64,000 nucleotides of DNA from Notolepis coatsorum (lineage: Eukaryota; Chordata; Actinopteri; Aulopiformes; Paralepididae), in contig OZ020601.1 in NCBI GenBank assembly GCA_963971535.1, positions 16,276,140 through 16,340,139 of the forward strand, given 5' to 3'. This document shows, piece by piece, positions 1 through 62,040 of the stretch; position 1 is the stretch's first letter; every line of letters begins with the position of its first letter. The notes beneath the pieces were generated by a model that had not been told where the DNA came from, searched no databases, and was given only the letters and a program-made list of their open reading frames with translations. A program made the translations under genes and the position numbers.

Positions 1-434
1 CTGGTCTTCTACAGAGACACAACCAGAGCATCCTGACTGGTCTTCTACAGAGACACAACCAGAGCATCCTGACTGGTCTTCTACAGAGACACAACCAGAG
101 TCTCCTGACTGGTCTTCTACAGAGACACAACCAGAGCATCCTGACTGGTCTTCTAATGAGACAACCAGAGCCTCCTGACTGGTCTTCTACAGAGACACAA
201 CCAGAGTCTCCTGACTGGTCTTCTACAGAGACACAACCAGAGCCTTCTGACTGGTCTTCTAATGAGACACAACCAGAGCATCCTGACTGGTCTTCTACAG
301 AGACACAACCAGAGCCTTCTGACTGGTCTTCTACAGAGACACAACCAGAGCCTCCTGGCTGGTCTTCTACAGAGACACAACCAGAGCCTTCTGACTGGTC
401 TTCTACAGAGACACAACCAGAGCCACCTGACTGG
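1..434. repeat. 36-bp minisatellite derived from LINE coding DNA
   Basis: About twelve head-to-tail copies of a 36-bp unit, with single-base variants such as agcatcc, agtctcc and agccttc. The array runs off the left edge. At its right end it passes without a break into LINE reverse-transcriptase C-terminal sequence. The unit aligns with the LINE codons for FYR...SILTG that should lie directly upstream of that sequence, so it looks like an expansion of part of the LINE. Open frames here are repeat translations and are not genes. Confidence 0.9.
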
Positions 435-770
435 ATGCATCACCGCCTGCTATGGGAACTGCTCTGCCCTCGACCACAAAGCGCTACAGAGGGCCGAGGG
501 AACAGTCCAGAAACATCGGTGGCTGTGAGCTTCCATCCAGGTGTGTCGGCAAAGCCAGCAGAATCATCAAAGACCCCGACCAAACCCAAAACGCAGACCG
601 TTTCAGCCGATGCCGTCTGGTAAACGTTTACCAGAGTCTCAGGACTCGACAAGACTCTGGGACAGCTTTCCCCTCGGCAGTAAGGCAAATAACCTAGCGG
701 CCTCCTGCCTGCTGCCTGTCTGTCTGCCCCCTCACTGCACTGAGTCACACCGCCACATGGACTCTAGCTA
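434..770 (+). pseudogene. LINE reverse-transcriptase C-terminus (family A), degenerate
   Basis: Frameshifted translations recall the end of a fish LINE ORF2: ITACYGNCSALDHKALQR, then RIIKDP, then PSGKRL. The order CITAWYGNC / KALQR / PSGRRYR is typical of L2/Rex-like fish LINEs, recalled from family knowledge. No frame is open throughout, so it is a dead 5'-truncated copy. Confidence 0.75.
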
Positions 771-20702: not shown

Positions 20703-21469
20703 AAGGGACAGAGCAGGACAACACAGAGACTCTACAGGAAGGGACAGAGCAGGACAACACAGAGACTCTACAGGAAGGGACAGAGCAGGACATCACAGAG
20801 GCTCTACAGGAAGGGACAGAGCAGGACAACCCAGAGGCTCTACAGGAAGGGACAGAGCAGGACATCACAGAGGCCTCCACAGGAAGGGACAGAGCAGGAC
20901 AACACAGAGGCCTCTACAGGATGGGACAGAGCAGGACAACACAGAGGCCCTCTATAGGAAGGGACAGAGCAGGACAACACAGAGGCCCTCTATAGGAAGG
21001 GACAGAGCAGGACAACACAGAGGCCCTCTATAGGAAGGGACAGAGCAGGACAACACAGTGGCTCTACAGGAAGGGACAGAGCAGGACAACACAGAGGCCT
21101 CCACAGGAAGGGACAGAGCAGGACAACCCAGAGGCTCTACAGGAAGGGACAGAGCAGGACAACCCAGAGGCTCTACAGGAAGGGACAGAGCAGGACAACA
21201 CAGTGGCTCTACAGGAAGGGACAGAGCAGGACAACCCAGAGGCTCTACAGGAAGGGACAGAGCAGGACAACCCAGAGGCTCTACAGGAAGGGACAGAGCA
21301 GGACAACCCAGAGGCTCTACAGGAAGGGACAGAGCAGGACAACACAGTGGCTCTACAGGAAGGGACAGAGCAGGACAACACAGTGGCTCTACAGGAAGGG
21401 ACAGAGCAGGACAACACAGAGGCCTCCACAGGAAGGGACAGAGCAGGACAACACAGAGGCCCTCTACAG

Positions 21470-22273: not shown

Positions 22274-22620
22274 CTCTACAGGAAGGGACAGAGCAGGACA
22301 ACACAGAGGCTCTACAGGAAGGGACAGAGCAGGTCAACAGAGGCCCTCTATATAGGAAGGGGCAGAGCAGGACAACACAGAGGCTCTACAGGAAGGGCAG
22401 AGCAGGACATCACAGAGGCTCTACAGGAAGGGCAGAGCAGGACAACACAGAGGCTCTACAGGAAGGGCAGAGCAGGACATCACAGAGGCTCTACAGGAAG
22501 GGACAGAGTAGGACAACCCAGAGGCTCTACAGGAAGGGACAGAGTAGGACAACACAGAGGCTCTACAGGAAGGGCAGAGCAGGACAACACAGAGGCTCTA
22601 CAGGAAGGGCAGAGCAGGAC

Positions 22621-23061: not shown

Positions 23062-23150
23062 GAGCAGGACATCACAGAGACTCTACAGGAAGGGACAGAG
23101 CAGGACAACACAGAGGCTCTACAGGAAGGGACAGAGCAGGACATCACAGA

Positions 23151-23290
23151 GGCCAACACAGAGGTCTTCCTGAGGAGACTCAGGTCCTTCAATGTGTGCA
23201 ACAGACTTCTCACACACCACTAACCGCCTCGGCCAGTCCTTCGTACCAGTGGCCATAAGGAATATCTTATCTTATATCTCATTTAATCTT
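23151..23290 (+). pseudogene. LINE family A fragment (LRRLRSFNVC motif)
   Basis: Translates as FLRRLRSFNVCNRLL, a motif that precedes the C-terminal region of family A LINEs, then degrades. It directly abuts the minisatellite. Confidence 0.65.
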
Positions 23291-27401: not shown

Positions 27402-30585
<3,184 letters not shown>

Positions 30586-31248: not shown

Positions 31249-33872
31249 TCACATCTGCTGTGGTGGTGGAGATAAAACCGTACCACTGTTGCAAGGACCA
31301 GAACGTGTCCCTGTTGGCCCCCGAGACGAACCCCAGATGCGAGCAGAGCTGGGTCAAAGGTCATGGCCGTCCTCTCTTGTTCAATAGAAATAAGAATAAT
31401 ACAGAAAAAGAAAACACACAAAAATAATAAAACCGTGACACTTTCAGTCCACTGCGGGCTTCGTTGTAACTTCTCCAAAACGAAATCAATCACCTTTCTG
31501 GTGATTCAAGAACGCAACGAAAAATGTGGCTTACAATACAACAAATAAAACAAAACAAACTTCCGAAAGCAAAGAGACAAAGTACTAATAAAAAAATTCT
31601 AGAGCTCTCTAGTCTCTAATCAATAATCTAGAGCTCTCTAATAATTAATCTAGAGTTCTCTAATCATTAATCTAGAGCTCTCTAATCATTCATCTAGATC
31701 TCTCTAATCATTAATATAGAGCTCTCTAGCCATTAATCTAGAGTTTATCTTGACTGTCTATTTTGCTGCTGTCTATTTTATGCTTGTTTTATAATAATTG
31801 TATGTCTTAAAGTGTATCATTAAAGTGTATTTACCCCATTCACTACCTGACGCGTCTATATACATGTGGCTGTGTCACAAAATACTGTTTCCTGTCTCGC
31901 AGGCCATCGCCCACTTCAACGACAGTAAAGGGGAGTGCGCCGTCCCCTGCCTGGCCGTGTCCTCTGGAAACCTCAGCCTGGGCGGGTGGGTGTGATGCCA
32001 AGGCCAACGTCACGCTCGGCTCAAGAGTGTCTGTTCTCACGTGAGCCGCCTCTTCTTCTCCTTCGTCTTCACTCTTATCCTGTAGTAGGCCTATACTAGT
32101 TCAAGTTTGAGTTTTTATTTGTCACATATAAGGCACACGTATAGGGAAATGCTTGGTTCTGTATGACCTTCCTGAGAGTGTGCTTCATACATACAGTAAA
32201 AGGTTAAAGAGTAAAAGACCAAACACTATACAAAACATACAATATACAAAACTAAAATGTACAAAAAACCTAAATGCAAAGATGTGGTGTAATGTTTAAA
32301 AAGTGTCTAAAGTGAGTGAATGTTTAAGGAGAGTGTTTAAAGTGAGCGTGTGCAGCATTGTGGATGTTGTGTGCAGTGACTGAGTGTAGAATGGATGAGT
32401 TAATGTTACAGTGAGTCCACATTGAGCAGCCTGATGGCCTGGGGATAGAAGCTCTATATAGCTATAATAATGTGTGTACTCTCAGTTTAAGTTTAAGTTT
32501 AAGTTTCTTTAATAGTTGTCATACAGAAGTACAGAATACTTTTATACAAAATGCTTCTTACTGTTGCGCTCCAGAGACTGTGCAAGACAAGATAAGTATG
32601 AAATAAAATAACATAGTAAAATTAGAAGTAAAAAAATGAGGTCACAGTGTTCAGTCTAGACATATGTACAATGTTCGATGCAGAATAGACGTAGTTACCA
32701 TACAATATACAATACTGTGCAGTGTACTAATATACAATACTATATAGTGCAAGGCAGAAATGGAGAAATGGGACGAGGTGCAATTTAGGTACAATTCACA
32801 GTAGGTGTACGAGTTGTAGTGCAAATCCTTTATCAATAAATATAAAGTGTAAGTGTGTTTGTGTGATCTAAAGTGTGGAGAGTGGGTGCTGCAGTGTGTT
32901 GTTTGTTTGAGTGAGTGTGTGCGTGTGGGTGTGTGTGCTGTGTGCATTTGATGGTTGTTGCATAGTGATTATTGTTCGTTTAGCAGCCTGATGGCCTGGG
33001 GCTGGCCTCATGTGTCTTAACCCTTTCACTGCCACACTACAGAAGGTTAACCCTTTACTATCACACTACCGACGGTTACCGTCGGTAGTGTGATAGTAAA
33101 GGGTTAACCTTCTGTAGTGTGGCAGTGAAAGGGTTAACCTGCTGTTGTGTGGCAGTGAAAGGGTTAACCTTCTGTACTCTCATGTGTCTTAAAATCAGAA
33201 CGAGGCACTGATGGAGAAGTGGACCCACTTCTATCCCGAGGAATGTCCTGCCACCATTGACTCCGCGCTCGTCCCACCTGCAGAGAATCGCCACTCCCAC
33301 TACGGTACGAGCTAAGAAAACACATACACACGCATACAGCGCTGTGGGATGGGATTCACCCCGGTGAAAGTGATATAGCTGAAATGTTGGCGCATTAATT
33401 GGGGGAGCCAGTGGCTCAGGAGGTAGAGCGGTCGCCTGGTGATCGCCTGGTGATCGGAAGGCTCCAGGCTCGATTCCCGCTCCTCCCGGGCAGCGCGTCG
33501 GAGTGTCCTTGAGCAAGACACCTTACCAATAATTGCTCCCGACCTTGCATGGTAGCCTCCACCGTGGGTGAGTGAATGGGTGAATCTGAGGAACAATATT
33601 GTAAAGCACTTTGGATAAAAGCACTATAAAAATGAATTCCATTTACCATTTAATAAATTGTAGCTATTTGCATATTAATATTAAAAGCAATCACACACAC
33701 ACACACACACACACAGGTAACACACCTGTAATGTCTCTTGTGATCATAATTTCCACTTCTTTCATTTGCAGGAGCTGGGATTTCATTTTTGGTGTTCATT
33801 CTGGCCATTCTGACTTTCTCTTGGAAATGGCACCAGAAGAAGAAGAAGGCTGGATGTGGCCTCCCGCAGTAA
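31249..33872 (+). CDS. Unidentified single-pass membrane protein, candidate exons (possibly a pseudogene)
   Basis: Four candidate exons: 31249-31352, 31903-31989, 33199-33304 and 33772-33872. Features: CCKDQNVSLLAPETNPRCEQSW-type Cys-rich segment, ECAVPC in the second, an EKWTHFYPEECP segment, then a membrane span (ISFLVFILAILTF) and a Lys-rich tail before TAA. Exons 3 and 4 have good splice sites (TACG|gtacga, ttgcag) and matching phase. The first two donors (TGG|gtcaaa, TGG|gtgtga) are weak. In exon 2 a strong donor at 32041 would include a stop in this frame, while the shifted frame reads CDAKANVTLGSRVSVLT with an N-glycosylation site, which hints at a 1-bp insertion. I do not recognise the family, and no 5' exon was found. 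Confidence 0.4.
31598..31745. repeat. 22-bp tandem repeat
   Basis: Imperfect copies of tctagagctctctaatcatt+aa between candidate exons 1 and 2 of the plus-strand gene. Confidence 0.85.
32095..33000 (-). mobile_element. Two LINE 3' UTR remnants
   Basis: Reverse-oriented 3' ends: 32095-32450 (tttgagtttttatttgtcac ... gcagcctgatggcctgggga) and 32480-33000 (gtttctttaatagttgtcat ... gcagcctgatggcctggggc). The shared ending shows one family. No coding part. Confidence 0.6.
33017..33137. repeat. Perfect 121-bp palindrome of the 30-bp dispersed unit
   Basis: Two 60-bp arms around a single central T (33077), checked base by base with no mismatch. Each arm holds two units of the ttaaccctttcact...agaagg repeat. 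Further inverted-orientation units continue to about 33175. Confidence 0.95.
33396..33650 (+). mobile_element. tRNA-derived SINE (family 1)
   Basis: Head ccagtggctcaggaggtaga, with gatcgcctggt doubled, B-box ctcgattcccg, body gtgtccttgagcaagacacc, and tail gtaaagcactttggataaaa. It lies between candidate exons 3 and 4 of the plus-strand gene. Confidence 0.9.
33693..33716. repeat. (CA)n microsatellite
   Basis: Twelve CA steps just upstream of the exon 4 acceptor of the plus-strand gene. Confidence 0.9.
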
Positions 33873-39427: not shown

Positions 39428-39633
39428 TTACATCTTGGGACTGAGAGGTCCCTTCACCAGGCCCTGCTCTTTGCGCATCACAGGCGCGTGAATGCTGCAG
39501 TCTCGTGCCTCGCAAATTCCAGGTATTCCTGCGTTGCCGGCCATGCCAGGGATGCCCACTGGGCCGCGGTACCCACGTGGACCGCGAGGACCCTCCATGC
39601 CGTTTTTGGGATCCGCCGGGTGACCTGGTACAC
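39428..39633 (-). CDS. Collagen last exon (COL1 end, NC1, stop)
   Basis: Acceptor ttctcag, phase 1 in. Contains GVPGHPADPKNGMEGPRG, GIPGMAGNAGIPGICEARDC and a Lys-rich tail to TAA at 39430-39428. Confidence 0.92.
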
Positions 39634-42600
39634 CTGAGAAGGAAAATATATCATAGCACAATAATGCAGCATGGTGTGTGATAGAGAATATATCATAGCA
39701 CAACAATGCAGCATGGTGTGTGATAGCGAAGTACTCCTTTATACCTAGACCATGTCTGCTAAACATACACAGATAGGCTCTACTGTTTCTTTATAGATGT
39801 TGTCAAATGGGTGTTTGATTTGTAATTGCTGTGTAAATTAAATAACTAAATAATCCTCCTTGCCTATATTACTACCTACTATGCTAATATGTCTTTACTA
39901 CTATGCACTCAAGACTGTAGCACCCAAGTTTCAACACTGTTTGACGAACATTGTTACTCAGCTGAAAGAGTTATACACTTCCTGCTGACCTGTTGTACAG
40001 AACTTCTAAGTCACTTTGGATAAAATGACCAAATGTAAATGTAAATGTAAATTATGGCCTTTGTTCTATTGCTATACTTGTGTATTTGTTTGCTGCACTG
40101 TGTGTGGGGCTGTGTGTAATTACACCTGGCTGCTAAACAAATTCCCCTCAATTAAAAGAACTGTACAATAATGAAAATAAATCACCAGAATTCCCCAAGC
40201 CCTTTGAATTTACCACAGTAATTACTATGGTAATTTTGTTAGTGTAAATTGATCAGTTTTCAGGCATTGTATCAGGAAAGCATCAAACCTATGAGGCCTT
40301 GGTGTCCATCATGTCCTGGCAGGCCTTTACCGACATCACCCCTAGCTCCTTTGGGTCCTTTTTGACCTGTTGGGGAGAAGAAAAGCTGCACTCAAATCAT
40401 CCATGGTAAACACCTGACCATGTTTAATCATCCATATCAACCACCTTACCATGTTTAATCATCCATATCAACCACCTTACCATGTTTAATCATCCATATC
40501 AACCACCTTACCATGTTTAATCATCCATATCAACCACCATACCATGTTTGATCATCCATATAAACCACCTTACCATGTTTAATCATCCATGGCAAATACC
40601 TTACCATGTTTAATCATCCATGTCAAACACCTGACCATTTTTAATCATCCATATCAACCACCTTACCATGTTTAATCATCCATGTCAACCACCTGACCAT
40701 GTTTAATCATCCATGTCAACCACCTGACCATGTTTAATCATCCATGTCAACCACCTTACCATGTTTAATCATCCATGTCAAACACCTGACCATGTTTAAT
40801 CATCCATGTCAAACACCTTGCCCTGTAACCTGTATGGTCACAGGTTCGATCCCTGGAACAGCCAATGTGTCCATCCTGGTGGAAGTATCATTAAAGGAGA
40901 ACTACGCCCAATTTAAGAATTCATACATGTTATGTCTGAGATGGCCCAAAGATGTTGGTGAACACAAAAAACTCACATCTGTGATGTCATCAAGTATAGC
41001 GTCCGGAGCTGCTCCATAGGTAATTCATTGGGGAAGATGATAAAGGTGACACCGAGCACATCCAGGGGAAGGTTCTGAGTTCATATGTTTATAGGTACAT
41101 GTTGTGTTTCAGAACTGAGACACTACTATAGAATAAAGACGATTTGGATATAAAAAGAACAATAAAAAGAAAACAAACATTCTGTGGGTCCAGAAAATCT
41201 CCCATTCATTGTCAATGGAGCAGCTTTGGCTTTGGAAGAGAGAGTAGCTCATAGTAGCTTCACAAAACGTTCCTAGGCCATGGAAATAACATGTTGGAAT
41301 TCTTAATTTGGGTGGTGTTCCCCTTTAACTGAGACACTGAACTGCTGCCTGATTTCAGGGGTGCTAAAAATGGCTTAACTCTGTGTTCTGAGTGACCCCT
41401 GGTTTGCAAGGAAATATTCCAAATGACACGATGTACTGGGGATTGAGTGCTCTAATGTTCCTAAATGAACGATGTACTGGGGATTGAGTGCTCTAAAGTT
41501 CCTACACAGTCAATGTACGGACTAATGTCACGGACTAATTACTATAGAAATACTCAAATGAATCACTATAGAAACATAATTTTTCTATAGTAAAACCACA
41601 GGAATACTATAGTGAATCACTATAGAAACATAATTCTTCTAGTAAAACCACAGGAATACTATGGTTATTCACTATACATAATTGTTCTATAGTAAAACCA
41701 CAGGAATACTATGGTTATTCACTATATAAACATAGCTTTTCTATAGTAAAACCACAGGAATACTATGGTTATTCACTATATAGACATAGCTTTTCTATAG
41801 TAAAACCACAGGAATACTATGGTTATTCACTATATAAACATAGCTTTTCTATAGTAAAACCACAGGAATACTATGGTTATTCACTATAGTAAAAACAGAA
41901 GAATACAATAAATCACAACAGTATTTCTGTGGTAAATATCAATAATGCGTATGAAACAAAAAACAACAAAGGAATACTATACAAGGTTTTCCTATGGTTG
42001 AGTTTGGTTTGGATGGAGGTCCTGGACGTAACGTTACCTCTGTCACCCTCCGGTCCCTTCAGTCCTTCCAGACCCCTGTCTCCCTGGAGACCCCTGGCCC
42101 CCTTGGCTCCGGCCTTGCCTGCTTTGCCCTGAGAGACGGGGGCGTGTGGAGAAAGGAAAACGAAAGAGTAGAAGTGGAAAGCTTTATTGTCATTGCACAA
42201 TACAGTACAACGATACCTACATACACACACTACCACACAACACATCCATGATGTACCCATAGACACACTACCATACATACATTAGTGTACCCACACTACC
42301 CCCTGCTACACGTGCACTTATTCACAAGAACATTCAAAAGTATTTTAAAACATCACAGTAGAAAATAAATATTGCACATTGAAAATATGGCACCTTAGAG
42401 AATAACATTATTGCATTATTGCACATACAACAAGTATATATTATAGTGAGGTAGATGTAGATGTGGTGGCAATATGGGGGGGGGGGTGATTGTTCAGTTC
42501 AGAAGCTGTTCTGCAGCCTGGAGGTGGGGCTTTGAAGGCCCTGTATCGCCTCCCAGATGGCAACGGGGAGAAGAGGTGGTGAGAGGGGTGGGTTTCATGC

Positions 42601-45600
42601 TTCAGGATGCTGCTATAGCTCTGCGGAGGCAGCGCATCCTGAAGATGCCACCCAGTGTGGGCAGGGGGACACCGATGGTTTTTTTGGGAGGTGTTTATGA
42701 CTCTCTGGAGGGATTTCATTTCATATTCTGTGCAGTTTGCGTACCATGCTGTGATGGAGTATGTTAAGATGCTCTCAATAGAGCAGTGGTAGAAGGCCTT
42801 AACTGTGATGGAGTATGTTAAGATGCTCTCAGTAGAGCAGTGGTAGAAGGCCTTAACTGTGATGGAGGATGTTAAGATGCTCTCAATAGAGCAGTGGTAG
42901 AAGGCCTTAACTGTGATGGAGTATGTTAAGATGCTCTCAATAGAGCAGTGGTAGAAGGCCTTAACTGTGATGGAGTATGTTAAGATGCTCTCAATAGAGC
43001 AGTGGTAGAAGGCCTTAACTGTGATGGAGTATGTTAAGATGCTCTCAATAGAGCAGTGGTAGAAGGCCTTAACTGTGATGGAGTATGTTAAGATGCTCTC
43101 AATAGAGCAGTGGTAGAAGGCCTTAAGCAGCTCAGCAGACTTTTTTTTAAGTGTCCTTAAAAAATAAAGCCGCTGTTGGTTTTTTTTTTTTACCAGTGCA
43201 GTGGAGTTGGTCGTGATGTGGGTCCCTAGGAACTTAAAGCAGGGGTCTCTCTCCACTTCCTCACATGCGATGGCTGGGGGGGGGGGGGGGTCCACCCTGT
43301 GTCTCCTGAAGTCAATGATGATCTATTTTGTTTTTTTTACGTTTAATGTGAGATTGTTGTCCGGGCACCATCCAGTTAAATTGTGGACTTCATCTCTGTA
43401 GGCAGACTCATCATTGTTGGAGATTCGTCCTACCACTTTTGTGTCATCTGCAAACTTTACTATAGTGTTTGAGGGGTGTATGGAAATGCAGTCATAATCA
43501 TATAGTGAGTAGAGCAGCGGACTCAGCACGCAGCCTTGAGGTGCGCCAGTGCTGAGGGACAAACTGGAGGAGAGATGAGACGCGACTCTTTATGCTAGTA
43601 TAACTAAAATACCATTTTATCACATGAGGTGCATTTAGTTTCCTGAAGAGTTGCTCTTATTGGGGGCGACAGTGGCTCGGGAGTGACTTTAACATTCCAG
43701 CTAATTTTGTTCGAGCCCAGCGCTCCACATTGCTTTCAGTTTAGCTGGTCGTCCGTACTAATACACATTGGCAGTATTAGGGGGTGGGAAACTGATGGGT
43801 GGGGATCGGGCGTTGTGGACAGCGACTCCTACAGGTCGGTTGGTGCGCCTGCGCAGTAGAATCGGGAAGCGATGGCCCCCTCCAAAGTGCAGACCCCTGA
43901 CGCTGAAAGATCGCGCCGCGCAGGTGAAAAAATGCAACTGCTGTTACCTCGAGTATCGGAGGGGACTTGTGCTATGTATGACTTAGTCCACATTGCAGCC
44001 GGCTTGTGGGAGGCAAGAAACAGCATTCGAGACAGGGGAGGGTTGAATTGGATGATACGAAATTGGGATGGGAGAAAAATAGAAAATGGGAGAAAAAAGT
44101 GGATACAAAAAAAACATTCCAGCTAATTTAGCATAAAAAGCCTATCGAATGCATACCCAAAGTAAATTGAAAGGTATTCTTGAACCATTTGTAGCACATA
44201 CATAAGTCTGGTCTCTTTTGAAAGACTTTTTCGAAACTGACGCTCGTTGGCTGTTTGGTCTTATAACCCGACATTGGAAGCACGTAATAAGTCGAGCAGG
44301 GTGTCAATCAACCGGCGGCGATTTTAGCTTTCAAACGATGTGCTGCTTCAGATATACTAAAACAATGGGACGCCGACAGACAACGGTAAATGTACTGTTT
44401 AACGTGTCCATCACGGCCCATATGTTAACAGGTTAAAGTTTTTTATATCCCGATTCTCATCACACATGCATTCAACAAATGTAACAAACATCCAAAGTCA
44501 AGTCAGAAACTCACAGTTTTGCCTGCCCCTCCTGTCGGTCCCCTGCCCCCCGGAGGTCCTATGAGCGTCCGGTTGTTGACGGGGCAGCCCTGGGCACACT
44601 TGGCCCTGATGGAGGACGCATACTGGGAGATCTGCGCTGTGACCACACCTTTGCAAAGCTGCAGCACCTGCTCATCTGTAAGACCGGGGCCCTGGACGGG
44701 AGGAATCAGTCGGTCAGTTAATCAGTTGTCAGTCAGTTGATCCAACTCTCAACTTGCAACCAGAGTGGCGGGCCAACTGACGCTACATTACAACATTACG
44801 TTACATTACTTAGCCCTTCATTCAACCTAAATGTAAATTCTGAGATATGAAGACCTGAAACTGAAATATGCAATGTATTTAATCTCTGTGTACTGTCAGT
44901 TCTGGAGTTGGAAGTTGCATTTCTTCACTTTTTGACGTAGCTAGGCTAGCTCCCTACTGCTTTCCAGTACTTGTGCTAAGCTAGGCTAGCATGCACCTGG
45001 ACCGCTCTCTCTCTCTCTGGCTACTGGACACACTGTGATGAAACCGATCTTCTTCTCGTCTGACTCTGGGGGAAATGGCAAACAAGTGTGTTCCTTTAGG
45101 CAGTTGTATGTTTAGCCGCTAGCGTTCATTTTAAATCCTCATCTAATCTCAATACTGAAGCTTACCCAACGATGAAACAACATTGGTTGAAAAACCGACG
45201 CCATAAACATTCATTTCAGTCCCTGTTTGAGATGTTGATAAGATAAGATAAGGTATTCCTTTATTGATCCGCAGGCATCATCATAGCAGCATGGGGAGGG
45301 GGGAGGGGAGGTACAGGTATGGGCAGGGTAATAGTAGAATACATAAATACAGGCAATACAATTATAGTACAGTAGACAAGTTAAAATAGGGAGTATAAAA
45401 TTAACTCTGAATATACGCATATGAGCAAGTAGGCAGTGTGATCAAAGGTGCAGATGAGGTTCTGTATGCCCTATCAGTTATATTATACATTACAATAAAT
45501 ATGGTTACAATAAACACTAGAATCTAAATATATGTAACAGAGCTGATATCGTCACCTTTTTGCGTTGTGTTAAACTTCGATGCCCAGAGGGAGTTTTGAA

Positions 45601-51600: not shown

Positions 51601-54600
51601 TCTTCCATGAGTTAAATGATATCTTCCATGAGTTCAATGATATCTTCCATAAGTTAAATGATATCTTCAATGAGTTCAAGTTCAATGATATCTTCAATGA
51701 GTTCAATGATATCTTCCATGAGTTAAATGATATCTTCCATAAGTTAAATGATATCTTCCATGAGTTAAATGATATCTTCCATGAGTTAAATGATATCTCC
51801 CACAAGTTAAATGATATCTTCCATAAGTTAAATTATATCTTCCATGAGTTGAATTATATCTTCCCTATGTTAAATTATATCTTCCATGAGTTGAATGATA
51901 TCTTCCATGAGTTAAAGTATGGTCAGCACTAAAAAAATAAATGTAATTATCTTTTTCCTCCTTCCATCCCAATGTTAGTCGTTATGCCAATTCCCAATCC
52001 CCTTCCTGGTCGTTGCGCACTCTACCCCCTACCGTCGGTCCGGGAGGGTGGAGACTATCACATGCTTCCTCCGACACATGTGTACCCAACCCACCGCTTC
52101 TTTTCACCTGGCAGTGTGGACTCTCACTGGGAGAGTGTAACGTGTGGAAGGTCACACTACCTCTCCCAGATCCTTCCCTTGCTGTGCAGGCGCCCCGACC
52201 GAACTGTAGGAGTCGCTGTTTACAACGACCAGGACCCACTTGTACCGGATCTCCTCACTGGTAAACAAGAATACCCTGAAGACTCTAGCAGGAGCACTCA
52301 TTCAAGGGTACTACGACTATGCTTGCACCTCATGGTACCAAAGCACCTCAAAGGCGCTAAAAACAAAATTACAAACATCTCAAAACAAACTGGTCAGACT
52401 ACTGCTTGACCTTACTCCTAGAACCCACCTCACCCCTGCCCACTTTGACAACCTAGGATGGCTTAGAGTAGACGACAGAGTACAGCAACTTGCAATGGGC
52501 CTGGTCTACAAGATACACTACACGACCAAGGTACCCATGTACATGACTAAATACTTCCCAAAGGTCAGTGAATACCACGATCACAACACCAGAGGGAGCT
52601 CCACAAATCATGTTAAACCCAGATTCGGCTCAAACAAGGGACTAAACACGTTTCGCAATTATGCCACATCAATGTGGAACGCCCTACCCAAAGCTGTAAA
52701 GGAATGTGAATCACTACCCACTTTCAAAAACACTCTCAAAAAACACCTAAGGGAGACTGCAACTCGAAACTGGCCCCTGTAAATGTCCGAACACAACCCC
52801 CGCCAATGTACAGTAAATTACCAAGTATGGTCTTGTCAATAATCCAATGTACAGTGTTGTTTGTACAGTTGTACAGTGTCCCCCACCCACCCCTCCTACC
52901 CACCCCCCCCCACCCAACCACCTCCAATGTACAGTCCAATGTACAGTCCCATAATCCAATGTACAGTGTTGTTTGTACAGTTATACAGTGTCCCCCACCC
53001 ACCCCTCCTACCCAACCCCCCCCCCCCCCCCCACTCCTACCCAACACACCCCCCCCCCCCCCACTCCTACCCCCCCCCCCCCCAACCACCTCCAATGTAC
53101 AGTCCCACCCCCACCTACCCAATCCAATGTACAGTTTCTACGCCTAATGTATATACTCTTTTCTTTCTGGACTCTTTTTGTATCACAAATACAGTACTGT
53201 AATTGCAAATCTGGTATGTCATAAATGTATAGATGTAGCAGTACTGTCTATCTGTATGTCATGTATGTCATATATGTTACGATGAATTGGAAATGGGGGA
53301 CCCTGGTGTAAACAAGACAAAAGTCTTTCTCTGGTCTGCATCCCCTTAACAATTGTATGTATTGAGCTGTACTGCACTGTACCCATTCTACAATCTGTTA
53401 ATAAAGTTTTCATTCATTCATTCATTCATTCATTCATTCACCCTCGCTGGGTTTCCCACCCTCGCTGGGTTTCCCCCCCTCTAACATTGCCAATTGTGTT
53501 AGTATGGAAGGTCGGCCAACCCGGAAGCACCACAGCCGGATTCGATCCCACTGTCTCTGTGGTGGTAGACAGACGCTTAGTCCGCTGCACTACCCAGCCG
53601 CCTGCGACTGAAGTGTTATTGATATAGTTTTATAGGCAGATGAGAAATTTAATAAGATAAGACTGAATTCAAATATCAGACCCTCCATGCAAATCTGTGG
53701 ACAGAATTCCTTCATACTGAGTGATTTTAGCCTTTGCCTTTGTGTTTTTCCCACACTCCAACCGTCTCTGTTTGTTTGCACCATGACTGTGTCATAGTCG
53801 TAAAGAGTCACAGCTCAATACAACAACACTTAAAAACACTGTGTTTTAGTTTTCATGAGAAGTGTCAACGAGTCACATACCTTCTCACCATCAGGTCCTG
53901 TCTCACCTTTGGAGCCCTGGAAAAAAAGACGTTATTCCATCAACTGTCAACTAAACACGTAACCTACCATACAGTTGTTTTTAATGCATCTTCATACTCT
54001 AATAGTTAAAGGCCCAATCAGTCATCTTCATACTCTAATAGTTAAAGGCCCAATCAGTCATCTTCATACTCTAATAGTTAAAGGCCCAATCAGTCATCTT
54101 CATACTCTAATAGTTAAAGGCCCAATCAGTTATCTTCATACTCCAATAGTTAAAGGCCCAATCAGTTATCTTCATACTCCAATAGTTAAAGGCCCAATCA
54201 GTTATCTGCATACTCTAATAGTTAAAGGCCCAATCAGTTATCTGCATACTCTAATAGTTAACTCACCCTTGATTGACTCACCTCTCAATGAACACTATGG
54301 TAAATATTAGTTTTTAATTGTATTTTCTGTGTTTTGTGTCTGCAAAATATTTATTTACATTGGAAAATGTTGTAAACATAGGAGTAAACTAGTTTAAAAT
54401 AGTAAATTCTATTATGCTTTGTGACGAGTTAATAAAGATTTGTGTAGTTGGGCTTTATAATGTGTTGTTGATGGATGAGTGTTGATGGATGAGTGTAGTT
54501 GGGCTTTATAATGTGTTGTTGATGGATGAGTGTAGTGGGCTTTATAATGTGTTGTTGATGGATGAGTGTATTTGGGCTTTATAATGTGTTGTTGATGGAT

Positions 54601-57600
54601 GAGTGCTGAGGGTTGAGTGTTGATGGATGAGTGTTGATGGATGAGTATTGATGGATGAGTATAGTGGGCTTTATAATGTGTTGTTGATGGATGAGTATAG
54701 TGGGCTTTATAATGTGTTGTTGATGGATGAGTGTATTTGGGCTTTATAATGTGTTGTTGATGGATGAGTGCTGAGGGTTGAGTGTTGATGGATGAGTGTT
54801 GATGGATGAGTGTTGATGGATGAGTGCAGTGGGCTTGATAATGTGTTGTTGATGGATGAGTGTAGTGGGCTTTATAATGTGTTGTTGACGGATGAGTGTA
54901 GTGGGCTTTATAATGTGTTGTTGACGGATGAGTGTAGTGGGCTTTATAATGTGTTGTTGATGGATGAGTGTAGTGGGCTTTATAATGTGTTGTTGATGGA
55001 TGAGTATAGTGGGCTTTATAATATGTTGTTGACGGATGAGTTTGATGGATGAGTGTAGTGGGCTTTATAATGTGTTGTTGATGGATGAGTTTGATGGATG
55101 AGTGTAGTGGGCTTTATAATGTGTTGTTGATGGATGAGTTTGATGGATGAGTGTAGTGGGCTTTATAATGTGTTGTTGATGGATGAGTTTGATGGATGAG
55201 TATAGTGGGCTTTATAATGTGTTGTTGATGGTTGAGTGTTGATGGTTGAGTGTTGATGGATGAGTGTAGTGGGCTTTATAATGTGTTGTTGATAGTGAGC
55301 GTTGATGGTTGAGTGTTGATGGATGAGTATAGTGGGCTTTATAATGTGTTGTTGATGGATGAGTGTTGATGGATGAGTGTAGTGGGCTTTATAATGTGTT
55401 GTTGATGGATGAGTGTAGTGGGCTTTATAATGTGTTGTTGATGGATGAGTGTAGTGGGCTTTATAATGTGTTGTTGATGGATGAGTGTAGTGGGCTTTAT
55501 AATGTGTCGTTGATGGTTGAGTGTTGATGGATGAGTGTTGATGGATGAGAGTTGATGGATGAGTATAGTGGGCTTGATAATGCATTGTTGATGGATGATG
55601 ATGGTTGAGGGTTGATGGTTGAGTGTAGTTGGGATTTATAATGTGTTGTTGATGGATGAGTGTAGTGGGCTTTATAATGTGTTGTTGATGGATGAGTGTA
55701 GTGGGCTTTATAATGTGTTGTTGATGGATGAGTGTTGATGGATGAGAGTTGATGGATGAGTGTAGATGGATGAGTGTTGATGGATGAGAGTTGATGGATG
55801 AGTATAGTGGGCTTGATAATGCATTGTTGATGGATGATGATGGTTGAGGGTTGATGGGTGAGTGTAGTTGGGATTTATAATGTGTTGTTGATGGATGAGT
55901 GTAGTGGGCTTTATAATGTGTTGTTGATGGATGAGTGTAGTGGGCTTTATAATGTGTTGTTGATGGATGAGTGTAGTGGGCTTTATAATGTGTTGTTGAT
56001 GGATGAGTGTAGTGGGCTTTATAATGTGTTGTTGATGGATGAGCGTTGATGGATGAGTGTTTGATGGATGAGTGCAGTGAGCTTTATAATGTGTTGTTGA
56101 TGGATGAGTGTAGTGGGCTTTATAATGTGTTGTTGATGGATGAGTGCAGTGGGTTTTATAATGTGTTGTTGATGGATGAGTGTTGATGGATGAGCGTTGA
56201 TGGATGAGTGTTTGATGGATGAGTGCAGTGGGCTTTATAATGTATTGTTGATGGATGAGTGTTGATGGATGAGCGTTGATGGATGAGTGTTGTTTATACA
56301 CACAGGCTGCGCCTTTAGGCCCTTGGGTCCCATTTTGCCTGGCACTCCGGCGTCTCCTGGTTCTCCTTGGCCCCCCTGTTGGGCAGGATGAGCAGGGGTA
56401 AATAAAGTGACATCACAGGTAAAACACGGACAACACCGCTGAAACATAACACTGTAGAACCTGTATGGAACCTATAACGCTGAAACATAACACTGTAGAA
56501 CCTGTATGGAACCTATAACACTGAAACATAACGCTGTAGAACCTGTATGGAACCTATAACGCTGAAACATAACACTGTAGAACCTGTATGGAACCTATAA
56601 CGCTGAAACATAACGCTATAGAACCTGTATGGAACCTATAACGCTGAAACATAACGCTATAGAACCTGTATGGAACCTATAACGCTGAAACATAACGCTG
56701 TAGAACCTGTATGGAACCTATAACGCTGAAACATAACGCTGTAGAACCTGTATGGAACCTATAACACTGAAACATAACGCTATAGAACCTGTATGGAACC
56801 TATAACGCTGAAACATAACACTGTAGAACCTGTATGGAACCTATAACGCTGAAACATAACGCTGTAGAACCTGTATGGAACCTATAACGCTGAAACATAA
56901 CGCTATAGAACCTGTATGGAACCTATAACACTGAAACATAACGCTGTAGAACCTGTATGGAACCTATAACGCTGAAATATAATGCTGTAGAATCTGTATG
57001 AAACCTATAACGCTGAAATATAACGCTGTAGAACATGTATGGAACCCACAGTCTACAGGATTTGAAAGCAGCAGACAGGAATATGACACTAAATGTCCTG
57101 GCAGCCGCGTGCCACATACGACCTCTGATGACTTTACTCTTCTTGCTTTCGCCTTTGTTTTTAATGTCATTTGTGCTCTTCCGTCCTCATGAAACTGACA
57201 GTTACATGAACCCAACTCCCCACACACTGAGGGAAACCTCTGAAGCCATAGGGAGAGTCCTTTAACCCTTTCACTACCACACTACAGAAGGTTAACCTTT
57301 CACTACCACACTACAGACGGTTAACCGTCTGTAGTGTGGTAGTGAAAGGCTTAACCTTCTGTAGTGTGGTTGTGAAAGGGTTAACCCTTTGTCGTGTGGC
57401 AGTGAAAGGGTTAACCTTCTGTATTGTCGCAGTGAAAGGGTTAACCCTTTGTCGTGTGGCAGTGAAAGGGTTAATTTACAATAGAAGTGTGTGGTGAGTA
57501 CAATGTGTTCTGTATGATAGTATGTACAAACACTGTATATACCATACAGTGTTGTAGTACTCGAGTCCGGGTCCTGGACTGATTTTCAGGACTTGGGACT

Positions 57601-59972
57601 CGACTTGGATTTGAGCACTGATGACTCGGACTTGGACTCGAGCATTGACTGCATTCGGACTCGGAAGGTGCAGACTCGGACTCGGACTTGTTAATTGATA
57701 AATATAGTTGTATATATATATTTATATATTTATTTGTAATAGGCCCTAATCATTTGACATACGATATTGATGGCTAGTGCATTTGTTTGGCTATTGTGTC
57801 ACAAAGTAAATAAACTCCCTTTGAAATGGTGACCGCTGTGTCATTTATGTTTTAATGTAGATCTTTTTTATGAATGTCAGCTCTTTGACTGCCAGAGTGG
57901 AGTGGACTCAACCTTGATGACTTGGACTCGACTCGGACTCGACTCAGGCTCTTCTTTGGTGACTCAGACTTGGACTCGGACTCGAACACTGGGGACTCGA
58001 GACTCAACTCGGACTCAAGATTTAGTGACTCGACTACAACACTGATACCATATATATATATTTATTCTCACCGCATATATATCTGTCTGTATTTACCTGC
58101 GCATAGTCCTTTTACATATCTGTAGATACTATATATATATATCTGTACGTATCCTACTCTTACTAGTTAGGCGGCTGGCCAGTATGACTTACTACCATAG
58201 TGTCTTCATACCTGTATCACTGTACATATTATACTAGAACTCTGTACATACATCTGATTAGCACTACTCAGTAGTACTAATTTGTGGTACATTTTATATT
58301 GCTGTTGCACTTTACTGTTACATTTGCCAACATTTTAATCTAATCTAATCTAATCTAATTATGTACCTTTGTTCCTGTGGTCGATTAGAACTTTATTTAC
58401 ATATTTTAAGTGAGTTTCTTCTTGTATGTATTGTCATTTCCCTTTTGTCTTGGAGTGTTTGTTTGTTCCTTGTCTTCTACTGGTCATTCTTTATACTGTT
58501 TTGTTTTGCTTAAATAAAATAAAAAATCAGATCATAAAAAAAGTGTGTGTGAGCTGTCAGACCTATGAATCTGACAGCTCTAAACAACTAAAATACTGCT
58601 GTGCTGAAGCACTTTTTTCTTTTATTTATTTTATGTGTATCTGCCAATTTCATGATTGTTTCATGATCTATTTTATGTGTATCAGTGATAATCAAACTGC
58701 AAACAAAGAGGCCTTTTTTATGTCTGCACGTTACGCATTGCTCTTGATCTGCCAATTTTGTGCTGATTTTATGTCTGTGTCTTTTCTACTGCTGTGAAGC
58801 ACTTTGAGCTGCAATTATTGTATGAAAGGTGGTATACAAATAACATTTATTATTATCATAAAAGGGGGCGTGGGAATGGGAGTGGCCTATCACAGAAAGG
58901 TGGCAGCTATTGTGACGTCATGCTCGTGAGTCGTTGACTTACCCCAGCGCCCACTCTCCCTCTGCGTCCCGTCACGCCTCGGTCCCCTTTGCTGCCCTGA
59001 GAGACAAGACAGCGTCACTACTAACCACACATCAAAACAAGGACACTATAAAAGAAGGAAGGGTCGTCACGTCAGAATACCAACGTTCTATGCTCTGCTT
59101 GGTACCAGTTCTATTGAAGCCTGTATTAAAATTCTAAATATACCAGAGGAAATACAAATCAACCAATATAATATATCAAAAGTTAGTTAGTTAACAATGC
59201 AACACATTGCTGATGATTCTGAATAACCTGTTTAAATGAAAGGTCAGACGAAAACGGAAAGTTTCCACACTTGGCACCAATGTACGTTCACGTGCTACGC
59301 AGTGAAGCAATGACCCTTCCTTCTTTTATAGTTTCCTTGGATCAAAACAGGAAGTAAATGACACTATTGAAAATACAGTAGCATCTTTTTGTTCACTGTG
59401 TTCATTCGTTACGGTATTTCATGCTCTATGGCTACGCAATGGCAATGAACAAATGATTGATTGAATGAATGAACGAACGAACAAACAAACGAATGAATGA
59501 ATGAATGAATGAATTAATTAATGAATGAATGAATGGATGAATGAATGAATGAATGAATGTCGTTAACCCTGTGTACATTTCTTACGTTACATGTTCTCTC
59601 AGAATGCTATGACCAGTGGCCCTGGTGACGTCATTGTTGGAATGTTCAGTTAAAGGGTCATTCATGTTATTAATGAGCATGTTGTGACGATAAGACCTTT
59701 ACCTTCAAACCAAATTCTCCAGGGTTCCCTTCAAACCCAGGAACTCCAATAGAACCCTGAGAGGGGGGGGGGGGGGGGGAGAGAGAGAGAGAGAGAGAGA
59801 GAGGGAGAAATAGATGGCTTGTAAGAGGGCAATATGGATGAGTGGATATTGTCTGTACCATATTGCTCTTACGATATCAATGACAGACATATTAAATGTT
59901 CATCATCAAACTACCCACATCTTCTCCTGGCTCCCCGTCGCTGCCTGGCAGGCCGTCATGGCCGCTACCGCC
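39428..59972 (-). CDS. Type IX-like (FACIT) collagen alpha chain, 3' part of gene (12 exons)
   Basis: Twelve minus-strand exons join in phase to 345 codons plus stop: (Gly-X-Y)n of COL2, an NC2 segment with LCKGVV and KCAQGC, about 111 residues of COL1, and NC1 starting CEARDC and ending near KGPLSPKM. Five exons are 54, 45 or 36 bp, as in collagen genes. COL1 has two imperfections (DVGKGLPG and HPADPKNGMEG) at the places where type IX chains are interrupted, and NC1 has the CE...C...KGP pattern. Type IX binds collagen II fibrils in cartilage and vitreous. The NC2 Cys resembles alpha1/alpha3 more than alpha2, but the paralogue is unresolved. The 5' exons (N-terminal domains, COL3 and most of COL2) lie beyond the right edge. 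Confidence 0.85.
39870..40060 (+). mobile_element. LINE tail remnant
   Basis: Contains tatgcactcaagactgtagc ... aagtcactttggataaaatg and aaatgtaaatgtaaatgtaa; relative of 36505-36700. Confidence 0.65.
40289..40366 (-). CDS. Collagen exon, 78 bp (COL1)
   Basis: GQKGPKGARGDVGKGLPGHD then GHQGLI, phase 1-1. Donor G|gtttga is weak; acceptor cccaacag. The missing Y residue after GK is one of the type IX-like imperfections. Confidence 0.9.
   Translation of the reverse strand, partial: VKKDPKELGVMSVKACQDMMDTKAS
40396..40820. repeat. 31-bp minisatellite (collagen intron)
   Basis: About 13 units of catgtttaatcatccatatc + aaccacctta + c, with caaccac/caaacac and ttacc/tgacc variants. Confidence 0.95.
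40895..41324. mobile_element. piggyBac-like MITE, TTAA target
   Basis: Imperfect inverted ends (AGGAGAACTACGCCC / AGGGGAACACCACCC, then AATTTAAGAATTC / AAATTAAGAATTC) flanked by TTAA on both sides (40891-40894, 41325-41328). TTAA duplication is the piggyBac hallmark; the family is inferred from that only. Confidence 0.65.
41535..41893. repeat. About 54-bp minisatellite (collagen intron)
   Basis: Six or so units of ttctatagtaaaaccacagg + aatactatggttattcacta + tataaacatagctt. Confidence 0.93.
42038..42128 (-). CDS. Collagen exon, 91 bp (COL1)
   Basis: GKAGKAGAKGARGLQGDRGL then EGLKGPEGDR, phase 0 to 1. Acceptor gtctctcag, donor AGAG|gtaacg. Confidence 0.92.
42170..43562 (-). pseudogene. LINE family A with an internal 54-bp coding expansion
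   Basis: The minus strand encodes STGAPQGCVLSPLLYSLY and FADD (43454-43443), then NLTLNVKKTK. A nearby frame encodes CFKFLGTHI, RLYFLRTLKKK, seven copies of KAFYHCSIESILTYSITV, then WYANCTEYEMKSLQR and SPLPSGRRYRAFKAPP. The UTR runs to about 42170. Between the two frames there is a frameshift. The 18-residue unit is present once in normal family members. Confidence 0.9.
42748..43125. repeat. 54-bp in-frame tandem array inside a LINE
   Basis: Seven 54-bp units (gtgatggagtatgttaagat...) keep the LINE frame open. Confidence 0.96.
43707..44111 (+). mobile_element. SINE family 2, 16-bp TSD
   Basis: Flanked by direct repeats acattccagctaattt (43691-43706 and 44112-44127) and ending in an A-rich tail. 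Body phrase acagcgactcctacaggtcg recurs inverted at about 52215. The long duplication shows target-primed insertion. A 22-bp stub of SINE family 1 lies just upstream (43664). Confidence 0.82.
44130..45230. other. Collagen intron sequence outside exon 44515-44691; no other feature
   Basis: No repeat family or gene recognised apart from the NC2 exon. Confidence 0.5.
44515..44691 (-). CDS. Collagen exon, 177 bp (NC2 and start of COL1)
   Basis: GPGLTDEQVLQLCKGVV... with three Cys (LCKG, AKCAQGC), then IGPPGGRGPTGGAGKT. Acceptor cgtccag, donor ACT|gtgagt. Confidence 0.92.
45235..45520 (-). mobile_element. LINE 3' UTR remnant
   Basis: Reverse 3' end: gataagataagataaggtat + tcctttattgatccgcagg, typical of fish LINE 3' ends inserted antisense. 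Confidence 0.6.
45528..46980. mobile_element. Second copy of the TATATGTAAC element, with internal insertions
   Basis: Starts atatgtaacagagctgata and ends ccatctgttacatatata, sharing tttttgcgttgtgtt and aactcgcagtaccgctactc with 6518-8137. An inner segment bounded by acactttgagtgcca (45601) and tggcactcaaagtgt (near 46530) may be another element. A partial relative of the 62311 element lies at 46722-46920. Confidence 0.6.
46549..46719. repeat. Long hairpin: about 74-bp arms, about 23-bp loop
   Basis: gagagtgagtttaactcgca ... ccatcgtgactgca is followed by its reverse complement with only two mismatches. The left arm corresponds to single-copy sequence in the 6518-8137 relative, so the inverted copy is secondary. 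Confidence 0.92.
46982..47381. mobile_element. hAT-like element, 400 bp, TSD atatatac
   Basis: Termini TAGGGGTGTAACGGTACA and inverse with two mismatches; atatatac at 46974-46981 and 47382-47389. It landed in the terminus of the 45528 element. No coding capacity. Confidence 0.9.
47577..47714 (-). CDS. Collagen exon, 138 bp (COL2 end)
   Basis: RGTVGRAGGPGHVGPPGIPG ... GPKGAPGAT. The acceptor gcagag was chosen because it restores Gly-X-Y register with the previous exon (GQ|RGTV); the AG two bases earlier breaks frame. Donor ACT|gtgagt. Confidence 0.9.
47745..48270 (-). mobile_element. LINE 3' UTR remnant with (GAAT)n end
   Basis: gaatgaatgaatgaagttta + ttttttggtcttgtttacag, then A-rich UTR-like DNA. 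A run of about 21 G follows at 48338-48358. Confidence 0.55.
48360..49120. other. Collagen intron, no recognised feature
   Basis: Contains only a short atgtatgtatgt stretch near 48740. Confidence 0.5.
49123..49155 (-). CDS. Collagen exon, 33 bp
   Basis: GGFGDRGDKGQ, acceptor cttcacag, donor CAG|gtgttt. It ends after X of a triplet; the next exon supplies Y. Confidence 0.88.
49271..49315 (-). CDS. Collagen exon, 45 bp
   Basis: AAVGRQGIKGVKGTK, acceptor ctccacag, donor AAG|gtaact. The first triplet has Ala where Gly is expected. Confidence 0.82.
49479..50280. mobile_element. hAT-like element, 802 bp
   Basis: Termini CAGGGGTCAGCAACCTT and perfect inverse. Flanks caatacag (49471-49478) and caataaag (50281-50288) differ at one base, an aged 8-bp duplication. 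Inside is a short LINE/SINE-type tail (gagaagcgctatataaatta) with (ATT)n. Confidence 0.87.
50460..51925. repeat. 21-bp minisatellite, interrupted by a SINE
   Basis: Dozens of 21-bp units (atgatatcttccatgagttaa) with gag/aag/cat variants and 5-bp changes. Repeated WKISFNS-type frames are translations of it. Confidence 0.95.
50683..50945 (+). mobile_element. tRNA-derived SINE (family 1), inserted in the minisatellite
   Basis: Best copy of the family: head cgacagtggctcaggaggta, B box ggttcgattcccg, body gtgtccttgagcaagacact, tail gtaaagcgctttggataaaa + gtgctatataaatgcagcca. Confidence 0.93.
52236..53436 (+). pseudogene. LINE C C-terminal ORF (about 180 codons) and 3' tail
   Basis: Open from about 52240 to 52782: TLAGALIQGYYDYACTSWYQ, LLLDLTPRTHLTPAHFDN, YFPKVSEYHDHNTRGSSTNH and SMWNALPKAVKECESLP. 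The frame is cleaner than in the 13.5-16.7 kb copy. The 3' UTR has doubled tgtacagt / C-rich blocks and ends in (ATTC)n. Confidence 0.93.
53018..53092. repeat. C-rich tracts
   Basis: Three runs of 14-16 C separated by cactcctaccc in the LINE C 3' UTR. Strand-asymmetric and likely assembly-sensitive. Confidence 0.9.
53881..53916 (-). CDS. Collagen exon, 36 bp
   Basis: GSKGETGPDGEK, acceptor tttccag, donor AAG|gtatgt. Confidence 0.9.
53975..54262. repeat. 36-bp minisatellite (collagen intron)
   Basis: Eight units of catcttcatactctaatagt + taaaggcccaatcagt. Confidence 0.95.
54440..56290. repeat. Higher-order 36-bp + 14-bp minisatellite
   Basis: Main unit gtgtagtgggctttataatg + tgttgttgatggatga (36 bp), mixed with runs of the 14-bp sub-unit gtgttgatggatga. 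About 1.85 kb. The longer blocks (for example 55560-55660 and 55800-55890) are themselves repeated, a two-level structure. Confidence 0.95.
56304..56375 (-). CDS. Collagen exon, 72 bp, donor beside a minisatellite
   Basis: GGQGEPGDAGVPGKMGPKGL then KAQP. Acceptor gcccaacag is good; donor CCT|gtgtgt is weak and sits about 14 bp from a 1.85-kb tandem array. The last triplet lacks Gly. A one-base shift would read GPKGAA, so a small indel is possible. Confidence 0.75.
56425..57030. repeat. 41-bp minisatellite (collagen intron)
   Basis: About 14 units of ataacgctgaaacataacgc + tgtagaacctgtatggaacc + t, with g/a alternation in cgctg/cactg. Confidence 0.95.
57262..57475. repeat. Inverted array of the 30-bp dispersed unit
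   Basis: Units in one orientation to 57322, then in the opposite orientation, meeting at gacggttaaccgtc. The inner 54 bp (57296-57349) is a perfect palindrome; further out it is imperfect. Confidence 0.93.
57547..58044. mobile_element. hAT-like element, 498 bp, TSD ataccata
   Basis: CAGTGTTGTAGT and perfect inverse; ataccata at 57539-57546 and 58045-58052. The subterminal DNA is built of ggactcg/cgagtcc steps. No coding capacity. Confidence 0.93.
58195..58860 (+). mobile_element. LINE 3' UTR remnants
   Basis: 58195-58370 (attagcactactcagtagta ... tctaatctaatc) is a relative of 23590-23860. 58500-58860 ends gaagcactttgagctgcaat ... ggtggtatacaaataaca with (ATT)n, a relative of 34890. Confidence 0.65.
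58943..58996 (-). CDS. Collagen exon, 54 bp
   Basis: GSKGDRGVTGRRGRVGAG, acceptor gtctctcag, donor GGG|gtaagt. Confidence 0.92.
59036..59341. mobile_element. Small MITE with about 28-bp inverted ends
   Basis: ctataaaagaaggaagggtc (59046-59065) and its exact reverse complement (59312-59331); similarity extends a few bases outward (caagga.ac). A target duplication was not resolved. Confidence 0.7.
59462..59559. repeat. (GAAT)n microsatellite
   Basis: Mostly GAAT with early CGAA/CAAA variants. Confidence 0.95.
59703..59756 (-). CDS. Collagen exon, 54 bp
   Basis: GSIGVPGFEGNPGEFGLK, acceptor cctctcag, donor AAG|gtaaag. Directly upstream are (GA)n and a G run (59763-59803). Confidence 0.92.
59763..59803. 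repeat. G run and (GA)n beside a collagen exon
   Basis: About 17 G then about 12 GA, in the polypyrimidine tract (minus-strand reading) of the 59703-59756 exon acceptor. Confidence 0.95.
59919..59972 (-). CDS. Collagen exon, 54 bp (most 5' in window)
   Basis: GGSGHDGLPGSDGEPGED, acceptor ctcttacag, donor GAT|gtgggt. No further exon was found to its right. Confidence 0.92.
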
Positions 59973-59984
59973 CTGTAAGAGAGA

Positions 59985-60542
59985 GAGGGAGAGGGTGAGG
60001 TGTGGGGCGATGATGGAGAGGGGTGAGGGGTGAGGTGTGGGGCGATGAGGGAGAGGGAGAGGGGAGAGGTGTGGGGCGATGAGGGAGAGGGAGAGGGGTG
60101 AGGTGTGGGGCGATGAGGGAGAGGGAGAGGGGTGAGGTGTGGGGCGATGAGGGAGAGGGGTGAGGTGTGGGGCGATGAGGGAGAGGGGTGAGGTGTGGGG
60201 CGATGAGGGAGAGGGAGAGGGGTGAGGTGTGGGGCGATGAGGGAGAGGGGTGAGGTGTGGGGCGATGAGGGAGAGGGAGAGGGGTGGGGCGATGAGGGAG
60301 AGGGGTGAGGTGTGGGGCGATGAGGGAGAGGGGTGAGGTGTGGGGCGATGAGGGAGAGGGTGAGGTGTGGGGCGATGAGGGAGAGGGGTGAGGTGTGGGG
60401 CGATGAGGGAGAGGGGTGAGGTGTGGGGCGATGAGGGAGAGGGAGAGGGGTGGGGCGATGAGGGAGAGGGGTGAGGTGTGGGGCGATGAGGGAGAGGGGT
60501 GAGGTGTGGGGCAATGAGGGAGAGGGAGAGGGGTGAGGTGTA
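59985..60542. repeat. 28/34-bp minisatellite (collagen intron)
   Basis: About 17 units of ggtgaggtgtggggcgatga + gggagag, with or without an extra ggagag. Strong purine asymmetry. The Pro/His/Ser-rich minus-strand frames are artefacts. Confidence 0.95.
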
Positions 60543-60579
60543 GTCTATAGTGTGGTAGTGAAAGGTTAACCTTCTTATT

Positions 60580-62040
60580 GACAGTGATGGGATAGATGAT
60601 TATAGTGAAAAAGACAATTGATTGTATAATCAAACCTCTCTGTTATATTTGTAATCTTTCTTTTCAGACAGGTATTTTTCCAGACAGGATGAAGGTAGCA
60701 AAAGTTATCCCACTTTTCAAAGTAGGATATAAGCACAGCTTCACTAACTATAGACCAGTGTCATTGCTCTCACAGTTCTCGAAAGTGTATTTTCGCATAA
60801 GTTCGATGTTTTTGTGGAAAATAACAAACTGCTGAGCGAAAGCCAGTATGGCTTTAGGCAAAACAGGTCAACAGCGACTGCCTTAATGAATATTATTGAA
60901 GAAATAACAACAGCAACAGATCAAAAGAAATTAACAATAGGGGTGTTTATTGATTTAAAAAAGTAATTTGATACCTTTAGATTATAATATTTGTATTTCT
61001 AAATTATGTTCATATGGTATGAGAGGAATGGTTCTTGAATGGTTGAGTAGTTATCTCCACAATAGGCAACAATATGTACAGTTGGCAGATGTCAAATCTG
61101 AGCTCATGAAAATTGAATGTGGGGTACCGCAAGGTTCGGTTTTGGGGCCTAAACTCTTTCTTTTATATATTAATGATATTTGTGATGTTTCAAAACTATT
61201 ACAGTTTGTCTTGTTTGCTGACGATACCAATTTTTTTGCTCTGGAAATAATTTAAAGAAACTAGCTGAATATATTGTGTATGAAATGACAAAGCTAAAAA
61301 AAAAATTGATGTAAATAAGCTATCACTGAATCTGAAAAAAACAAAATTTATGATTTTTGGCAATCGAAAACTAGATGAAAATATAGTATTGTCCATAGAT
61401 GGAGTTGATATTGAGAGAGTTACTGAATTTTGTTTTCTTGGTGTAATTATGGATGATAAACTAACATGGAAATCTCACATAGCACATGTTAAAAAAAAGA
61501 TGTCCAAGAGTATTTTTGTTATGAATAAAGTAAAGGATGTGTTAGAGTATGAGGCAATGAGAACACTCTACTGTTCACTCATCTCACCTTATCTTAGTTA
61601 TTATGTTGAAGTATGGGGGAATACTTATGGGACTAATATAAAACCATTATATATACTACAGAAGAGGGCTGTAAGAATCACACATAAAATGAATTATCGA
61701 GAACACACAAACATATTATTTATTACTCTGGGACCTCCTTGAAAACGAGATGGTTGATCTCAAGGGGTTATTCCTAATAAAGAATATCAATATATTAAAT
61801 CTAGAATAATTAAACTTGAAGACATGGTTAAGTTTCAAACAGTGTTAATTATGTTTAGAGCAAGAAATAAGATACTGCCAGAAAAGTTACAAAATCTTTT
61901 TCATTTAGAAAGTGAGTTTAGTAGGAGGAAATTAAATTTTAAACATCAGTTTGCACGTACCACACTTAAACAGATGTATCCTTCAGTTATTGGTATAAAG
62001 TTGTGGAATTCTTTCCATAGCGAGCTTAAAAACCTCTTAA
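60580..62040 (+). pseudogene. LINE family B, reverse transcriptase with frameshifts
   Basis: Order: NLSFQTGIFPDRMKVAKVIP, FTNYRPVSLLSQFSKV, SQYGFRQNRSTATALMNI, GVFIDLKK, CGVPQGSVLGPKLFLLYIND, FADD (61214-61225), KLSLNLKKTKFMIFG, FCFLGVIMDDKLTWKSHI, VKFQTVLIMFRARN and IGIKLWNSFHSELK. At least three frame breaks and no endonuclease. The C-terminus is nearly the same as the 24546-24905 fragment. Confidence 0.92.

Follow-up and report, generated by a model that had tools for sequence, protein, structure and literature searches.

Minisatellites derived from transposable elements (TEs) are well documented. Ahmed and Liang (2012; PMC3389668) counted no fewer than 7,276 tandem repeats of TE origin in the human genome, and 2,663 of these are Alu-associated, as cited in a later review (PMC9659126). 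In the human survey 300 of the 7,276 arrays carry flanking repeats of 5-20 bp and 159 have a truncated end unit; the other 6,817 show neither feature and are not accounted for by either of the two established models that the survey considered. Regional hotspots are claimed there for AluS and LTR12 and are described as not found for AluJ or AluY (PMC3389668). The review names satellites drawn from ORF2 of chicken CR1 and of LINE-1 in rodents and seals, and sees no conclusive evidence for preferred TE portions (PMC9659126). Among teleosts, the Atlantic cod assembly is described as having a tandem-repeat density about three times that of other vertebrate assemblies (PMC5241972).

Here we describe two arrays in a 64,000-nucleotide window (the whole stretch of Notolepis coatsorum DNA that was analysed), one of 54-bp units and one of 36-bp units, lying on homologous parts of two related LINE copies. 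As described for human arrays in that survey, they appear to have been initiated inside individual TE copies and to have grown by local duplication. The 54-bp array resembles the human majority in having no flanking direct repeats, and the report of some TE regions as hotspots is a further point of likeness; many of the human arrays are Alu-associated, whereas the sequence involved here is a LINE C-terminal coding segment, with two cases only (PMC3389668). The chicken HinfI (SCR1) satellite, derived from CR1, likewise takes its unit from part of a LINE ORF2, but as presented in the review it is satellite DNA built from the CR1 3' UTR and part of ORF2 (PMC9659126), while each of ours is one array, with 7 short units in one case and about 12 in the other. 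The cod genome, like our window, is exceptionally rich in tandem repeats, although the units in cod are mostly short (PMC5241972). Among the matches listed for tandem repeats in TEs, LINEs and fish, as represented by titles and abstract openings, there was no comparable case.

A 54-bp array within a truncated LINE copy

The array and the element that hosts it are placed as follows:

42749-43126, minus strand: tandem array of 54-bp units, 7.0 copies (TRF; 98% matches, score 742)
~42180..43565, minus strand: 5'-truncated LINE fragment hosting the array (both limits approximate, set by eye)

The earlier note had reported seven 54-bp units at 42748..43125 inside LINE coding sequence. The repeat is real, with a true span one base off from that placement, and its flanks do read as a LINE ORF. 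Read on the minus strand, the unit translates as KAFYHCSIESILTYSITV, with two variants: five of the seven units are identical, and the other two carry one substitution each (Y>S in one, I>T in the other), both of which alter the encoded amino acid. A 293-aa frame on the same strand (42441-43322) stays open across the entire array; all seven units are open because they are near-identical copies of one open unit. Head-to-tail units of 54 bp repeated 7.0 times lie within the 10-100 bp range of TE-derived minisatellites, and the LINE frame continues across one unit from the 5' to the 3' flank, reading SAELLKAFYHCSIESILTYSITAWYANCTEYEMKSLQRV when the array is collapsed to a single unit. The array is a TE-derived minisatellite, a known kind of repeat. 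A Pfam match to LRR_5 on the array was judged a by-product of the repetition. About 860 bp away there is a second array with a 54-bp period (41563-41889, 6.2 copies) and a different sequence.

The host fragment comprises the end of the reverse transcriptase (RT) domain and the C-terminal region, with a probable 3' end near 42180. Its upstream part reads in frame as RT-like GAPQGCVLSPLLY...FADDT, with one stop before IIIDFRRHR, and this RT remnant matches another LINE RT within the window (E 4e-7). Residues 37-76 of the 293-aa frame match Pfam ALKBH8_N (E 1.1e-10), a family that we take to be the LINE C-terminal region under a misleading alkB name; we therefore dropped an alkB identity for this frame. 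The element, which presumably belongs to the CR1/L2 group, is a truncated, dead LINE copy. No target-site duplication was found between 42101-42300 and 43501-43760, where the longest exact shared word is 7 bp. Collagen-like Gly-X-Y stretches occur in minus-strand frames at 41913-42281, 39428-39790 and 59892-60599, and to judge by these frames the LINE could lie within an intron of a collagen gene.

The left-edge array and related LINE copies

Three further features bear on the comparison:

1..434, plus strand: left-edge array of 36-bp units, 12.1 copies by TRF, cut by the window edge
435..630, plus strand: right flank of the left-edge array, decayed C-terminal sequence from a distinct, though related, LINE (tblastn)
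17905-18188, plus strand: third related LINE copy with the same segment and no array (tblastn, E 5e-10)

The right flank of the left-edge array reads LTGCITACYGNCSALDHKALQR, matching LTYSITAWYANCTEYEMKSLQR, so that the claim of a 36-bp expansion on the same LINE segment holds in the sense of a homologous place. In tblastn, the protein of the 54-bp locus aligns with the 435..630 region at E 7.6e-7 and 33% identity over 112 columns, a match that lies partly inside the left-edge array. Over the best 33-residue stretch the two loci are 48% identical in protein and 55/99 bp in DNA. A blastn search of the window with the element hosting the 54-bp array (E 1e-3) returned no match besides itself. Two copies of one LINE family would show high nucleotide identity; at 55/99 bp and with no blastn match, the description of the 54-bp locus as "another family A copy" does not hold.

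The LINE-frame translation of the 36-bp unit is TGLLQRHNQSIL and variants of it, and three-frame translation places FYRDT and SILTG in different frames within the units. A single unit out of the 12 measures 34 bp, 2 bp short. The earlier description of an in-frame expansion of the same residues is thus right for the 54-bp array and wrong for the left-edge one. Because the units share the frame break, it most likely predates the expansion, and the left-edge array most likely expanded after its host copy had died.

On the homologous LINE segment the 36-bp and 54-bp units are nested in position, with the centres of the two arrays mapping within about 4 bp of each other. We rejected common ancestry of the arrays on their differing units and junctions. 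Each of the two related LINE copies underwent an expansion of its own, and the positions of the two are homologous and overlap.

The third copy (17905-18188) gives tblastx matches of 36% over 42 aa and 58% over 24 aa, and is identical to the 54-bp locus at 76/123 bp. It has the segment without an array or duplication; the repeats found in 17600-18400 all lie outside the segment. The window has three recognised related copies, and in two of them the segment carries an array. The other 19 arrays all fall outside the window's LINE protein matches, so the LINE-borne arrays recognised by protein match are both on one segment. Two more arrays may also lie in LINE sequence: 20696-21469, which adjoins an L1-like frame, and 52992-53090, which lies about 210 bp beyond the end of a LINE ORF. 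Outside the window, collections described as viral, bacterial and archaeal DNA yielded no relative: of 8 pattern matches in viral contigs and 46 in genome contigs none was related, a DNA pattern had 0 matches in either set, and tblastn against phages gave none. Given their content, these negatives have no bearing on a hotspot.

Other LINE pieces are present as well. The 3' ORF pieces at 15855-16361 and 52210-52779 are 93% identical in protein and perhaps represent a younger family than the one hosting the array. At 14148-14710 a 169-nt repeat occurs three times (spacing 176 and 218) between two ORF pieces of another LINE; we read it as probably a nested inserted element and not as an internal LINE expansion.

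Minisatellite density and the chance of overlap

The window holds 21 minisatellites covering 16.8% of its bases; these were kept from 96 TRF rows after dropping those with a period below 20 or fewer than three copies and those overlapping other rows. In thirteen of them the period is a multiple of 3 (binomial test against 1/3, P 0.009). Given this excess and the broken frame of the left-edge array, being "in-frame" carries no weight.

Several arrays share a period or a unit. The period is exactly 36 bp in five of the 21 (1-434, 3353-4872, 20696-21469, 53987-54261 and 54480-56262). One 30-bp unit, GTTAACCCTTTCACTACCACACTACAGAAG, makes up three dispersed arrays (29071-29345, 33017-33176 and 57262-57474), the second and third of which show a head-to-head inversion; the pattern looks like that of a unit travelling with a dispersed element. 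One unit of 35-36 bp forms three nearby arrays (20696-21469, 22273-22620 and 23062-23153). The first of these adjoins a minus-strand frame with the motif HMYWDCPPVKIFW, presumably an L1-like C-terminal motif, and is possibly inside that element.

To account for the look-elsewhere effect we drew random positions for 21 seeds on the collapsed window and scored any pair that fell on homologous sites. Without masking, the simulated P was 0.14, 0.23 and 0.36 at tolerances of 15, 27 and 45 bp, with 3 of the 21 observed seeds having a homologous partner. With tandem repeats masked, P was 0.03, 0.06, 0.09-0.10, 0.16-0.17 and 0.26 at 4, 9, 15, 27 and 45 bp; of the 21 observed seeds, two had a partner at 4 bp, three at 9 bp, and four at 15 bp and above. 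These counts include other array pairs beside the LINE pair, for example those of the dispersed 30-bp unit. A homologue of the left-edge locus near a 46-bp array, which appeared in the masked run, was not reproduced and was left unused.

A simple binomial that ignores look-elsewhere yields lower values: P 0.0006-0.003 for two of three related copies, and P 0.003-0.016 for two of six, where the count of six takes in LINE copies of greater divergence near 15855, 52210 and 61600, matched to the segment by eye only. Given two arrays within a LINE stretch of 400-1400 bp, nesting has a probability of 0.014-0.05 and any overlap one of 0.065-0.24. Since the tolerance was picked after the data were seen, the positional overlap is suggestive at best.

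Origin of the two arrays

The account that we consider probable is that two TE-derived minisatellites arose independently in a genome rich in repeats, the 54-bp array being young and housed in a dead, 5'-truncated LINE, with the shared position most simply a coincidence. The young minisatellite would have arisen by tandem duplication within this LINE, near the collagen-like frames on the same strand. There are exactly 7.0 units, and the next base mismatches at either edge; the founding junction is therefore blunt, with no microhomology. A single 54-bp stretch would thus have duplicated, leaving no repeated bases at the junction, and would have grown to seven units through ordinary slippage or unequal exchange. 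The left-edge array would have arisen separately, in another LINE that is related to the first. CTGG stands at the start of its unit and again at the start of its right flank (the left flank lies outside the window), the pattern expected if this short 4-bp repeat seeded the array, as it perhaps did. That both arrays fall on the same segment would then reflect coincidence in a minisatellite-rich genome, made likelier because LINE copies survive with a 3' bias. The direct repeats flanking the arrays, 0 bp for the 54-bp array and 4 bp at the right edge of the other, are shorter than those looked for under the slippage model of Haber and Louis (5-20 bp in the human survey; PMC3389668).

Alternatively, a local hairpin, or short repeats close to its ends, could make the DNA of the RT C-terminal segment intrinsically prone to duplication within this LINE clade; this would fit with the regional hotspots that the human survey reports for other TEs (PMC3389668). 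We think this unlikely. The nested units, the expansion of two of three related copies and the simulated chance of 0.03 for centres this close do point in its direction; the third copy is unexpanded, and the look-elsewhere chance is not small across tolerances (0.03-0.26 masked, 0.14-0.36 unmasked). A hairpin with a 6-bp stem in the 54-bp unit (strand z values -2.3 and -2.0, a modest signal) has no such counterpart in the consensus 36-bp unit (z +0.3 and +0.8). Short repeats noted by eye near the leucine codons at the segment ends, CTTAA twice about 35 bp apart at the 54-bp locus and CTGG twice 36 bp apart at the left edge, would suit it too, but the junction of the 54-bp array bypasses the CTTAA pair. 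No seed repeat or hairpin common to the two loci was found. The earlier note had read two separate expansions with different unit lengths at one ORF position as a sign that the segment is prone to duplication: the expansions and their homologous position stand, whereas the proneness does not follow, given the chance values, the third copy without an array and the missing shared seed.

The remaining alternatives fare worse. Assembly readily collapses or expands near-identical tandem units, and the copy number of the 54-bp array could in principle be such an artefact. This is improbable; private substitutions in two units, together with continuous LINE sequence on either side, show that an array exists, whatever its exact length. 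It is harder still to believe that a master element with a duplicated segment spread by retrotransposition, giving the arrays a shared ancestry. Such spread was suggested for LTR12 by the authors of the human survey (PMC3389668), and would place arrays at homologous positions, but units of 54 and 36 bp, differing junctions, host elements with so little DNA identity and a third copy with no duplication of the segment all argue against it. Least credible is a functional coding repeat held open by selection over seven units, for although the 293-aa frame spans the array, the host fragment is 5'-truncated with a stop upstream, near-identity alone opens every unit, both substitutions between units change an amino acid, and periods divisible by 3 are common in the window while the left-edge array is out of frame.

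The initiation of minisatellites is still poorly explained. It is doubtful that DNA coding for FY..(T/S)IESILT recurrently seeds minisatellites across LINE subfamilies with less than 60% nucleotide identity, the conserved segment acting as a hotspot in dead copies; two cases in one repeat-rich window are insufficient to establish it. If it were true, a LINE segment that seeds arrays repeatedly would amount to a natural replicate experiment.
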